From the NCBI RefSeq assembly GCF_000214375.1, contig NC_015578.1, forward strand, positions 3,720,001 through 3,784,000: a DNA stretch of 64,000 bases. The letters are read 5' to 3'. The DNA is from Treponema primitia ZAS-2. GTDB lineage: Bacteria; Spirochaetota; Spirochaetia; Treponematales; Breznakiellaceae. The position numbers and the translations under genes were made by a program. Positions within the stretch are counted from its first letter, which is position 1, and every line of letters starts with the position of its first letter. The notes below the pieces were generated by a model. That model searched no databases. It had not been told where the DNA came from and saw nothing but the letters and a program-made list of their open reading frames with translations. Positions 1,205 to 7,634 of the stretch are shown one piece after another.

Positions 1205-1600
1205 TTATACCCAATTTTCTACCTTTAAATTCTTTATCCTTTCAAATTCTTTTGTGTTATTTGTCACCAATGTCATACCCAGTGATTTTGCATGGGCTCC
1301 TATTAACATGTCTAGCGGCCCTATTAAACATTGCCTGTCTTTTAAGCCCTTCTTTATTATTCCATATTCTTTCGTTGCCTTTTCATCAAAACTTTTTATA
1401 TCTATTATTGACAAAAATTCGATTAAGGCAATTTGATTCTTTTCTTTATACATACTATTTTCATTACCAAATTCCAATTCAGCCAATGTTATTGTCGAAA
1501 TTGCCAGGCCCTTTTTCCATCTTGATTTTAATTTTTTCAATACATTGGGATTTTTCTTCTTGATAATATATATACATATATTTGTATCAAGCATGTACAT
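1205..1600 (-). CDS. vapC: VapC-type PIN-domain ribonuclease toxin
   Basis: A 131-residue PIN-domain protein, the expected length for VapC toxins, which cleave tRNA or rRNA using Mg2+ bound by conserved acidic residues. It opens with MLDTNICIYI (first catalytic Asp), has TLAELEFG (Glu) in the middle and GPLDMLIGAHAKSLGMTLVTNN (second Asp and the typical C-terminal motif). It overlaps vapB by one base (TAATG), as in standard antitoxin-toxin operons. The gene is clearly more AT-rich and Lys/Ile-rich than its neighbours, which points to recent acquisition. Confidence 0.92.
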   Translation of the reverse strand: MYMLDTNICIYIIKKKNPNVLKKLKSRWKKGLAISTITLAELEFGNENSMYKEKNQIALIEFLSIIDIKSFDEKATKEYGIIKKGLKDRQCLIGPLDMLIGAHAKSLGMTLVTNNTKEFERIKNLKVENWV

Positions 1601-1875
1601 TATAACTCTTCTCTTTCCTGATCTGCGCCCTGATATCTTCCTTCGCTCATAAAATCTTCAGAAAATCCATTAAGCCCATGTAAAAATGTTTCCCATCCCT
1701 TATCAACAGGAAATAGCATGACAGCGTCCCCTACCTTCTGAATATATACATTTTCACCTTTAAACTGATATTCTTTAGGGAGTCTTACAGCTTGGCTCCT
1801 GCCATTTATAAACAAACGCGCTGTTTGCAAACCCTTAGGGCTTACTTCTGATTTAGGTTTAACCGGTGCATGCAT
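1600..1875 (-). CDS. vapB: VapB-type antitoxin (SpoVT/AbrB fold)
   Basis: A 91-residue antitoxin that should neutralise the adjacent PIN toxin and bind its own promoter. The swapped-hairpin AbrB-like DNA-binding region is visible at residues 18-55 (ARLFINGRSQAVRLPKEYQF, then VYIQKVGDAVMLFP), and the acidic C-terminal tail is the likely toxin-binding part. The ATG at 1875 follows an AGGAGG at good spacing and overlaps a second, out-of-frame ATG at 1871. A promoter with a 20-bp palindrome lies directly upstream. The order antitoxin then toxin, with one-base overlap, is the classic arrangement. Confidence 0.9.
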   Translation of the reverse strand: MHAPVKPKSEVSPKGLQTARLFINGRSQAVRLPKEYQFKGENVYIQKVGDAVMLFPVDKGWETFLHGLNGFSEDFMSEGRYQGADQEREEL

Positions 1876-2015: not shown

Positions 2016-3242
2016 CTACTGCTTGCTCAATACCAGCATCAGGGGCAGGTGATCGCTTAAGCCCTGGCCTGTCCGGGGGCTATAGGAACTTGGAACCCCC
2101 TTGGCATTGACAAAGGGCTCCTGGTCCAGCACCCGGCAAAAACTGAAGTCCCAGCCGGCTTGATCAAAAAACTGCTCTGTCAGCAGAAAATGATCAATGG
2201 TCTCCCAGTTGTTTTTATAGTAATAGGAACCGTTCAGCAGCTCCTGGCCCCAGGGCGAGTAAAAGGCAAGACCATCAAAGTTTGCCGCGGACGGCGGCTT
2301 TTCCCCGCTGATGATGAGGAAGTCCCCGGTACTTTCCGCAGTACTTCCAGTTCCGGCTTTAGCCGGCCCGACTTCAGTCGGCGAGCTTCCTGCATATAGA
2401 CCGGCCACTTGCAACGAAGTTCCCCGCGCTACTTGCAACGAAGTTCCCCGCGCCACGTGCAACGAAGTTCCCCGCGCATATTCGGCAGCCTCCGGAGCAT
2501 CGGGCATGAGGGCGCTCAATACTTTGCCGTCCCTGCGGTAGAATTCGTCGTGGTTTTCGTTCAGATCCCCCATAATGACCCCAGGTATCTTGGGATAATC
2601 CCGCCGGATCTCCACAATACGCCGGAGTATAACCCGGGCGGATGCCCGGCGCAGGGTTTCGGTCTGATCATCCCCGCCCAGCTTGGATTTCCAGTGGCAT
2701 ACAAAGAGAACCAGGGGGGTGTCCTGGGGTCGCAGCCAAAGTTCCAGTACCGGCCTGGGGGCAGTTTGCTGGTCCCAGGTGATCCCGTGGACCCGGGTCT
2801 CCGTGAAGGGATAGCGGCTCAAAACCCCCAGCCCCAGAGAGGAGCCTTTGTTCTTGGAGAAATAGGTCCAGCCGTAGCCGTACTTTGAAAGCTCCCCCTT
2901 GGCAAGGGCATCCAGGCACTGGGAATTTTCTATTTCCTCCAGAGCCAGGATATCCGGCGGCCCCCCGTCAATGCTGGCTATTGCCCGGGACAAGGCGCTT
3001 ACCCGGGCAGAAAATTTGTCCGATCCCCAGCCGGCCTCGTTAAGGTATTCATCGTACTCGGTCCCGGCCTGATTCCCGTCAAACAAGGCCTGTACATTCC
3101 AGGTAACTATCCGCAGATTCCCCGGGACAGGACCGGTGCCGCCGTTTTCCGATGGTGAGGTAAGACTGCACCCGGCACTCAGTGCAACGAGAATACATAC
3201 CGCCCATACACACCGGACGCGTTTAAATAATTGAAAATACAT
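2016..3242 (-). CDS. Exported endonuclease/exonuclease/phosphatase-family lipoprotein
   Basis: A 408-residue EEP-superfamily phosphodiesterase or nuclease. The N-terminus is a lipoprotein signal with lipobox LSAGC (Cys25). Superfamily motifs are in order: VTWNVQ (catalytic Asn, about residue 49), ALEEIEN (metal-binding Glu), GDLNENHDEFYR (Asp and Asn) and LSDHLPLML (terminal Asp-His). It would act at the cell surface or periplasm on nucleic acid or a phosphoester. Residues about 256-304, between the GDLN and SDH motifs, consist of the dispersed repeat, including three perfect 8-residue copies of ARGTSL(H/Q)V, so the family core is interrupted by an insertion in a surface loop. The start ATG at 3242 has AGGAGG six bases upstream, but this ribosome site is buried in a hairpin. 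Confidence 0.88.
   Translation of the reverse strand: MYFQLFKRVRCVWAVCILVALSAGCSLTSPSENGGTGPVPGNLRIVTWNVQALFDGNQAGTEYDEYLNEAGWGSDKFSARVSALSRAIASIDGGPPDILALEEIENSQCLDALAKGELSKYGYGWTYFSKNKGSSLGLGVLSRYPFTETRVHGITWDQQTAPRPVLELWLRPQDTPLVLFVCHWKSKLGGDDQTETLRRASARVILRRIVEIRRDYPKIPGVIMGDLNENHDEFYRRDGKVLSALMPDAPEAAEYARGTSLHVARGTSLQVARGTSLQVAGLYAGSSPTEVGPAKAGTGSTAESTGDFLIISGEKPPSAANFDGLAFYSPWGQELLNGSYYYKNNWETIDHFLLTEQFFDQAGWDFSFCRVLDQEPFVNAKGVPSSYSPRTGQGLSDHLPLMLVLSKQ
2330..2477. repeat. Dispersed in-frame repeat, locus B (three tandem 24-nt units plus palindromic units)
   Basis: Three contiguous 24-nt units lie at 2406-2429, 2430-2453 and 2454-2477, differing only at the first and fourth bases. Upstream, 2330-2400 holds diverged long-form material with two adjacent palindromes, CCGGCTTTAGCCGG (2353-2366) and CCGACTTCAGTCGG (2368-2381). 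The host frame on the minus strand stays open throughout and reads ARGTSLQV repeats and PTEVG/PAKAG motifs. Confidence 0.9.
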
Positions 3243-3247
3243 AAGAG

Positions 3248-3276
3248 CCTCCTACTCCCTATCAGGGGGTAGGAGG
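3248..3276 (-). promoter_or_regulatory. Hairpin sequestering the EEP gene ribosome binding site
   Basis: On the minus-strand transcript CCUCCUAC (3276-3269) can pair perfectly with GUAGGAGG (3255-3248), extended by CCC/GGG across one mismatch with a 5-base loop UGAUA. The right arm contains the Shine-Dalgarno AGGAGG of the gene starting at 3242. The structure would hide the ribosome site completely unless melted or opened by a factor. Confidence 0.65.
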
Positions 3277-3334
3277 GAAATTTACTTTAAAGGTTTGAAA
3301 AAAAGATGGGCGCCGCTAAAAAAACGGATAGTTT

Positions 3335-4156
3335 TTAAGGTACTATGTTGAATTCCTGAACAACCTGAATGTCTGAACGGACAACGGAAATTCCGGGAAC
3401 CTCTCTGGCGGCGTTAAGCGCATTTTCTATAAGAACCTGCGAACTGGCCACCCCGAAAAGGGTAAGCTCCCCGCCGGAGACCGCCGCTTCCAGGAAGTGG
3501 ATGGCCAGCTCCCTTTCATACAGAATATGATGAATGGCCTGCTGGCCCAGGATCATCTCCTTGAGACGTGCCTCGTTCTGGGCTTCCGTCTCCTGGCTAA
3601 TAATGTGATCCCGAAGGTCCTTGATGATCTTCGCTGCCAGGGCTGGGTGCAGATTCCCCATATTCAAGGTCAGGTGATAATTGGAGCCTTCCCGCCAGTC
3701 AATATCAAAAAAATACCGGTGGAACCCGAAGCGATCATGATCGCTCTGTTCAATGATCTGCCTGGCCCGTTTTTCGTCGCAGTGGAAATAGCTCTTCACC
3801 CGCTCATAGCGTATCTCCGTGGGCGCTACCAGGAATACAGAAAGAACCCCAGGAATATTCTTAAACACTGCAGCGGCCCCCCGGCCGATAAAAACGCAGC
3901 TCCCTTCGGATGCTTCGGCAAGCATAGCCGTTTTCAGAAAGTGGAGATAATCGTCCCGGTCCTGGGATAGGGAAGCAAAAAACGACGGTTTCCGTTCATC
4001 GTATTTTTCAAGCTTGGTTCCCACAATCCCAAAGGATTTGATCCGTTCCTCCAACTTGAGCTTGTCAACAAAACGATAGCCCAGCAGTTTTGCCAATTCA
4101 GTAGCCGTCTCATCACCCAGAGCTGCCAATTGACGGGAAATTGTAATGATTGCCAT
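3335..4156 (-). CDS. Cytidylate-kinase-like P-loop family protein
   Basis: A 273-residue member of the cytidylate-kinase-like family (Pfam type PF13189). The N-terminus MAIITISRQLAALGDETATE matches the start of this family, with a degenerate P-loop region, followed by GYRFVDKLKLEERI and the phosphate-binding region FIGRGAAAVFKN. The nucleoside substrate is not known for this family, and the last ~75 residues form an added domain of mixed alpha/beta character. I chose ATG 4156 rather than the longer frame because AGGAGG (4161-4166 on the complement) sits at ideal spacing. It stands alone, divergent from the NUDIX gene. Confidence 0.75.
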   Translation of the reverse strand: MAIITISRQLAALGDETATELAKLLGYRFVDKLKLEERIKSFGIVGTKLEKYDERKPSFFASLSQDRDDYLHFLKTAMLAEASEGSCVFIGRGAAAVFKNIPGVLSVFLVAPTEIRYERVKSYFHCDEKRARQIIEQSDHDRFGFHRYFFDIDWREGSNYHLTLNMGNLHPALAAKIIKDLRDHIISQETEAQNEARLKEMILGQQAIHHILYERELAIHFLEAAVSGGELTLFGVASSQVLIENALNAAREVPGISVVRSDIQVVQEFNIVP

Positions 4157-4281
4157 GATACCTCCTTGGTCAAAGGGTTCCTGTGACCTACATACCAAGC
4201 ATAAAGCTTTGACAGGAACTTGTCAAAAGATTTAGAAAAGAACTCATTGCACCTCGGGGCTTAAAAGGGTATTTTATAGCC

Positions 4282-7144: not shown

Positions 7145-7591
7145 ATGGATCTGCACGTTTACACCGATGGGGGCTGTTCAGGCAACCCCGGGCCGGGCGG
7201 CTGGGCTTATGTGATTCTCGGACCTGAGGATAAAATCCGTGAAAAGTGGGGCGCCGAAGCGGAAACCACCAATAACCGGATGGAACTGTACGCAGCCCTG
7301 GAAGCCCTGGAAGCCCTGGTAAAACTGAAGATTAAGGCCGAAGCCGTGACAGTTTATACGGATTCCCAATATGTCCAGAAGGGTATGAGCCAATGGATAC
7401 ACTCCTGGAAACTCAACGGCTGGCGAACCAGCGACAAAAAGCCGGTAAAAAACCAGGAGCTATGGCAGCGCCTGGACGAACTATCCCTCAAATTCCCCCT
7501 GAAATGGAAATGGGTACGGGGCCACGCGGGGAATGAATACAATGAACGCTGCGATCAAATGACCCAGGAAGCTATTGCTTCTATAAAATGA
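7145..7591 (+). CDS. rnhA: Ribonuclease HI
   Basis: A 148-residue RNase HI, full length for the family, which cleaves the RNA strand of RNA-DNA hybrids. All catalytic acidic residues are in place: YTDGGCSGNPGPGGW (first Asp), NNRMELYAALEAL (Glu), VYTDSQYV (second Asp), and VRGHAGNEYNERCDQM (His and last Asp). The basic protrusion (WIHSWKLNGWRTSDKKPVKN) used for hybrid binding is present, as in the E. coli enzyme. It shares a transcript with the ydbC-like gene. Confidence 0.95.
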   Translation: MDLHVYTDGGCSGNPGPGGWAYVILGPEDKIREKWGAEAETTNNRMELYAALEALEALVKLKIKAEAVTVYTDSQYVQKGMSQWIHSWKLNGWRTSDKKPVKNQELWQRLDELSLKFPLKWKWVRGHAGNEYNERCDQMTQEAIASIK

Positions 7592-7626
7592 AGCGCTTTC
7601 AAAATGCAAAATTTTGAAAGCGCTTC
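7590..7626. terminator. 16-bp perfect hairpin between convergent genes
   Basis: GAAGCGCTTTCAAAAT and its exact complement flank a five-base loop (GCAAA). The stem starts inside the rnhA stop codon and lies between convergent genes, so it probably ends transcription from both sides. Each arm also resembles a cre/LacI-type half palindrome (TGAAGCGCTTTCA), a coincidence or a second role. Confidence 0.75.
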
Positions 7627-7634
7627 AAACGGGT

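Follow-up and report, generated by a model that had tools for sequence, protein, structure and literature searches.

Hairpins that sequester the Shine-Dalgarno (SD) sequence are known from the late genes of phage T4, where they form only in long early and middle transcripts, the messages from the adjacent promoter being too short for the hairpin (PMC2988022). Genes with this arrangement are I-TevI, soc, e and segB, and mobE of Aeh1 (PMC2988022). Also described are regulons that control natural competence; the streptococcal SigX core contains comEC, comFA/comFC, radC, ssbB, recA and dprA (PMC5069739), and in H. parasuis CRP-S sites precede radC, comF, comM, ssb and dprA (PMC5809987).

The locus considered here, an EEP-family nuclease gene of a termite-gut Treponema, has features of both. 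From sequence comparison it appears probable that the bases of an SD hairpin before this gene are also a competence-type promoter that starts transcription at the SD, and that transcripts reading through from upstream are shut. The T4 late genes offer an analogy for this arrangement. Several of them encode nucleases, as the EEP gene does; however, the latter is a bacterial chromosomal gene with a promoter of another class, its start and the silencing are predicted, and its hairpin is not conserved family-wide.

Setting of the EEP gene

The EEP gene occupies positions 2016 to 3242 on the minus strand of the window (the whole stretch of 64,000 nucleotides that was analyzed), with its ATG at 3242 to 3240. 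It encodes a secreted or lipoprotein nuclease of 408 amino acids, with domain matches to PF19580 (1.8e-22) and PF03372 (1.9e-11) and a lipoprotein-like N-terminus; the match to the extracellular DNases ExeM/NucH was weak and below the cut-off. A co-directional gene with Cytidylate_kin2 and BON domains (3335 to 4198, minus strand) ends 92 nt before the ATG. As the two genes are co-directional and no terminator-like site was found between them on the minus strand, read-through into the EEP gene is plausible. The same gene order is kept in the four nearest species, with a gap of 59 to 62 nt. The host genome comprises 4,059,867 bp, and its nearest relatives are termite-gut treponemes.

Within the EEP gene, 3.1 copies of a 24-nt tandem repeat, GCCACTTGCAACGAAGTTCCCCGC (window positions 2404 to 2477), encode RGTSLQVA repeats. 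The core of this repeat, GCAACGAAGTTCC, recurs in the window at 274 and was identified at 11 sites across 2.0 Mb of genome sequence, and the RGTSLQVA peptide has matches at two other places in the genome; this is a repeat spreading inside reading frames. Directly downstream of the EEP gene is a pair encoding a PIN-domain toxin and a MazE-like antitoxin (1205 to 1875, minus strand), preceded by a promoter near consensus (TTGACA-17-TATACT). One same-genus genome carries two EEP copies approximately 6 kb apart (G003 contig C20, 24031 to 24894 and 30010 to 31047; L173). Elsewhere in the window, a long perfect terminator-like hairpin of 17 pairs with a T-rich tail (7589 to 7627, minus strand) lies between two convergent genes, which end near 7591 and 7635.

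A hairpin covers the SD of the EEP gene

Read on the minus strand, the bases before the start codon are CCTCCTAC-CCCC-TGATA-GGGA-GTAGGAGG-CTCTT-ATG. They form an inverted repeat (3248 to 3276) made up of the left arm CCTCCTAC (3276 to 3269), CCCC (3268 to 3265), TGATA (3264 to 3260), GGGA (3259 to 3256) and the right arm GTAGGAGG (3255 to 3248). The original prediction of a perfect 8-bp stem extended by three more pairs was exact, with coordinates that are correct on the minus strand; the two arms pair perfectly over 8 bp and are followed by three or four inner pairs (inner CCC/GGG). Its claim that the SD is locked in the stem just before the ATG also held, as the whole of AGGAGG (3248 to 3253) lies inside the right arm, 5 nt before the start codon, and is unpaired with a probability of only 0.002 at 37°C in a long transcript with both arms.

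Folding z-scores of the hairpin were -3.3 and -3.4. Stems of at least 8 bp arose in approximately 0.45% of 20,000 shuffles of the 29 nt that separate the -35-like box (see below) from the SD, and an SD stem of this length was present at just three of the 721 genes with a strong SD in 2.0 Mb of this genome. When upstream parts were exchanged between genes (1.6 Mb), no stem exceeded 7 bp. The hairpin is therefore real, and it is less common than expected by chance.

The inverted repeat occurs once in the 4,059,867-bp genome, which rules it out as a repeated element. As a perfect dyad that overlaps a promoter it could also serve as a DNA operator for a repressor, but the dyad is unique and the stems at other genes with the same promoter differ in sequence, arguing against a shared operator; we regard an operator as most improbable.

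The hairpin had been proposed to act as an RNA thermometer or a protein- or RNA-controlled switch. A thermometer, or a riboswitch operated by a ligand or protein, within a 5' leader containing both arms would agree with the strength of the SD-covering structure (z of about -3.4) and with the prediction that the nearest relatives likewise have structures covering the SD. Folding over a range of temperatures gave strong closure of the SD in the long transcript but no melting up to 80°C, with the unpaired probability rising only to 0.008 at 60°C and 0.03 to 0.04 at 80°C, so that the hairpin did not open in the physiological temperature range. No Rfam family matched at the site. In addition, the left arm lies inside the spacer and -10 box of a conserved promoter, the left arms are nonhomologous among relatives, and the pairing is unconserved across the family. 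On the grounds of stability, the lack of an Rfam match and the overlap with the promoter, this explanation was rejected and is very unlikely to be correct. The idea of a switch survives solely in a start-site-dependent form that would act on read-through transcripts.

A conserved two-box element lies upstream of EEP genes

The bases of the hairpin also carry a promoter-like element, which the original prediction overlooked. Upstream regions from approximately 50 EEP orthologs were collected and subjected to a two-block motif search, and some 45 of them were found to share ATTAAAGC[AG], followed after 14 to 15 nt by GCCNTATA. It is this element, overall TTAAAGC-N14/15-GCCNTATA, and not the hairpin, that is conserved among the orthologs. 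In the window, the minus-strand order before the ATG is TTTAAAGTA AATTTC CCTCCTAC CCCCTGATAG GGA GTAGGAGG CTCTT ATG. The -35-like box TTTAAAGTA (3283 to 3291, minus strand; consensus ATTAAAGCA/G) is in the same register as in the approximately 45 orthologs, and 14 nt separate it from the -10-like box CCCCTGATAG (3259 to 3268, minus strand; consensus GCCNTATANN), which occupies the same bases as the hairpin's inner stem and loop. The left arm thus sits in the promoter spacer, and the CCCC at 3268 to 3265 belongs to the -10 box.

Spacing between the boxes is fixed, while the whole module lies approximately 12 nt farther from the start codon in L021 to L023, L028, L030 and L037, and partly in L040 and L044. 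A fixed mutual spacing combined with a shifting distance to the start codon points to -35 and -10 elements rather than an SD-bound RNA structure, and we infer that the conserved two-box element is a promoter. The site in the window is degenerate, scoring 8.3 bits, a value reached by approximately 2% of SD genes; sites at same-genus EEP genes score 16.5 (L001), 12.6 (L002), 8.5 (L004) and 5.3 bits (L003).

Predicted transcription start

The offset from the promoter to the gene was analyzed at 105 non-EEP sites that scored 15 bits or more. An ATG stood at an offset of 6 to 7 nt after TATA at 24 sites (approximately 1.6 expected per offset), and GGAG stood at the same offset at 18 sites (approximately 0.4 expected per offset), with the ATG then at 16 to 18. 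Many members of the promoter class look leaderless, for example radC (GCCCTATATAgggtATG, L349). The most natural reading of an anchor common to the start codon and the SD is that it marks the transcription start. In most EEP orthologs, the predicted start falls within approximately 1 nt of the SD.

With the start codon or SD fixed 6 to 7 nt after TATA, the EEP start would be at 3254/3253 on the minus strand, at the first base of AGGAGG, giving a 5' leader of approximately 11 to 12 nt. A start inside the stem was what the original prediction had named as incompatible with its reading, and comparison predicts just such a position. If so, the left arm belongs to the promoter DNA, and neither it nor the CCCC at 3268 to 3265 enters the gene's own message, which would begin as (U)AGGAGGCUCUUAUG and be open for translation.

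Start-site choice may gate translation of read-through transcripts

We propose that TTTAAAGTA (3291 to 3283) and CCCCTGATAG (3268 to 3259) act as the EEP promoter, and that the hairpin could form only in read-through from the upstream gene, whose transcripts hold both arms and would fold shut. Translation of the nuclease would then probably require the firing of its own promoter, as in the T4 late genes. In folding predictions, access to the SD rises from 0.002 in the long transcript to approximately 0.23 to 0.34 at 37°C in the message from the predicted start. Two features of the T4 arrangement have a predicted counterpart here: sequestration of the SD in upstream-initiated transcripts by folding, and a proximal promoter starting between the arms by sequence and comparison. 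If correct, this would place on a bacterial chromosome an equivalent of the T4 late-promoter hairpin, where a message can or cannot be translated depending on its start site. Silencing of read-through transcripts by the hairpin is suggested by these folding models, and we give a gating function for the hairpin an even chance at best.

The closest competitor accepts the promoter as real and takes the hairpin as a functionless accident of C-rich promoter DNA lying opposite a G-rich SD; this is nearly as easy to believe as not. GCCCTA, the -10 consensus, has partial complementarity to TAGGAGGC, and a shuffled spacer does yield a stem of at least 8 bp in 0.45% of trials. Across the family, native arms paired no better than arms swapped between orthologs (P = 0.39), so the hairpin is not conserved as a trait of the family. 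In the nearest relatives, the left arms have no homology to that of the window. Compensatory evolution of the hairpin was rejected, as the left arms in the relatives consist of the -10 box itself, approximately 7 nt from the arm in the window; only one pair changes on both sides (T-A to C-G, L004 versus L002/L003).

Against an accident stand a KilA-N gene (1555528) and a PDDEXK_2 gene (1259063), identified in 2.0 Mb of this genome, which are unrelated, also carry the promoter and have SD stems of at least 8 bp. Excluding the EEP gene, 2 of 17 promoter genes had such stems, compared with 1 of the 704 others (P = 0.0016). Judged from their sequences, these two genes and the EEP gene all have the left arm ahead of the predicted start. 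In folding begun at that start, the predicted SD access is 0.96 instead of 0.000 for the KilA-N gene and 0.39 instead of 0.002 for the PDDEXK_2 gene. A second argument comes from the four nearest species with the same upstream gene, in which predicted SD access in read-through is likewise low (0.17, 0, 0 and 0.008). Broader comparisons gave weaker signals. SD unpaired probabilities below 0.05 were found for 4 of 17 promoter genes in the genome against a background of 6.7%, a weak difference (P = 0.027, or 0.10 in a rank test), and the association between a co-directional upstream gene and SD access across the family was borderline (P = 0.051).

Other genes carrying the proposed promoter

For an unbiased look at other genes, a matrix trained on EEP genes only was applied with a threshold of at least 10 bits before the gene. 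Sites were found at 18 of 21 comM genes (Fisher P = 3e-20), 18 of 29 radC genes (P = 2e-12), 16 of 25 recA genes (P = 9e-12) and 4 of 26 comEC genes (P = 0.002), compared to 1 of 148 and 3 of 108 in the controls. The radC genes lacking a site include short RadC reading frames of 142 to 191 amino acids. None of the 25 dprA genes had a site by this matrix and threshold, and dprA, unless carried along in an operon, thus does not appear to share the control.

The exact pattern TTAAAGCN{14,16}CCNTATA was clearly above its backward control in 60 family genomes. Among the products of the genes located just after these sites are RadC, ComF, RecA, SSB, a RecQ-like helicase, ComM, Y1 transposases, PDDEXK_2 and DUF3782 proteins and an integrase. 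In the host's own genome, sites precede comM (16.6 bits), radC (15.3), the KilA-N gene (13.1), ssb (11.6), comEC (9.5) and recA (8.6), with further sites at PDDEXK_2 genes, a Y1 transposase gene and a lipoprotein gene. Raw genome-wide matrix matches in this genome were not in excess over reversed or complemented controls; the promoter signal emerges only once gene context is considered or the family set is used. Ten Sigma70_r2 matches were identified in the genome, none standing out as a regulator.

A proposed competence-type regulon

A shared control element is therefore present before several transformation genes, by the matrix at comM, radC, recA and some comEC and by the exact pattern at comF and ssb. 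The promoter class common to these genes, the recQ-like gene and the EEP nuclease gene would most simply represent a natural-competence regulon under some sigma factor or activator. The uptake genes are present in the family, DprA in 26 and ComEC in 25 of 27 genomes, with comEC carrying the promoter in few genomes only.

Sigma-28 (FliA) promoters have the form TAAA-N15-GCCGATAA, and the Treponema element resembles them in the TAAAG of its -35 box and the GCC of its -10 box. It differs in that its boxes lie approximately 2 nt farther apart, that TATA stands in place of GATAA, and that the genes it precedes are not motility genes. Plain sigma-28 promoters were rejected on the basis of few consensus matches and the absence of motility genes among them.

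Since recA, ssbB, radC, comF and comEC belong to the SigX core and CRP-S sites precede radC, comF, comM and ssb, the shared promoter is taken to mark a competence-type regulon in this Treponema family. The gene content of the set overlaps with the streptococcal SigX and Pasteurellaceae CRP-S/Sxy regulons, whereas the site is different (TTAAAGC-N14/15-GCCNTATA), dprA has none, the hosts are spirochetes, and many members are predicted to be leaderless or to start at the SD. No description of a competence regulon in spirochetes was found in the open-access full-text library searched, which is not proof of absence. If confirmed, the element would be the first sequence signature of such a regulon in this group and would provide a ready list of member genes with exact predicted 5' ends.

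The promoter might instead serve a DNA-damage or general recombination response. The membership of recA, ssb, radC and the recQ-like gene agrees with this, as does the overlap of the set with a DNA-damage regulon, but the set also includes comM, comF, a secreted nuclease gene and, in some genomes, comEC, and recA, ssb and radC also belong to known competence regulons (PMC5069739; PMC5809987). We consider a damage or recombination response unlikely compared with a competence-type regulon. A more far-reaching proposal, which we put forward tentatively and hold to be rather doubtful, is a natural-transformation regulon of termite-gut treponemes in which a dedicated two-box promoter starts transcription exactly at the SD or start codon and hairpins spanning the promoter gate some genes in addition, which would keep nucleases and other risky proteins from ever being made from read-through transcripts.

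The KilA-N gene with a site has comF as its next neighbor in the host's genome, where it lies between the shared promoter and comF (G000, 1555528 to 1557148; L170). In two other genomes, comF directly follows the promoter and is seemingly leaderless.
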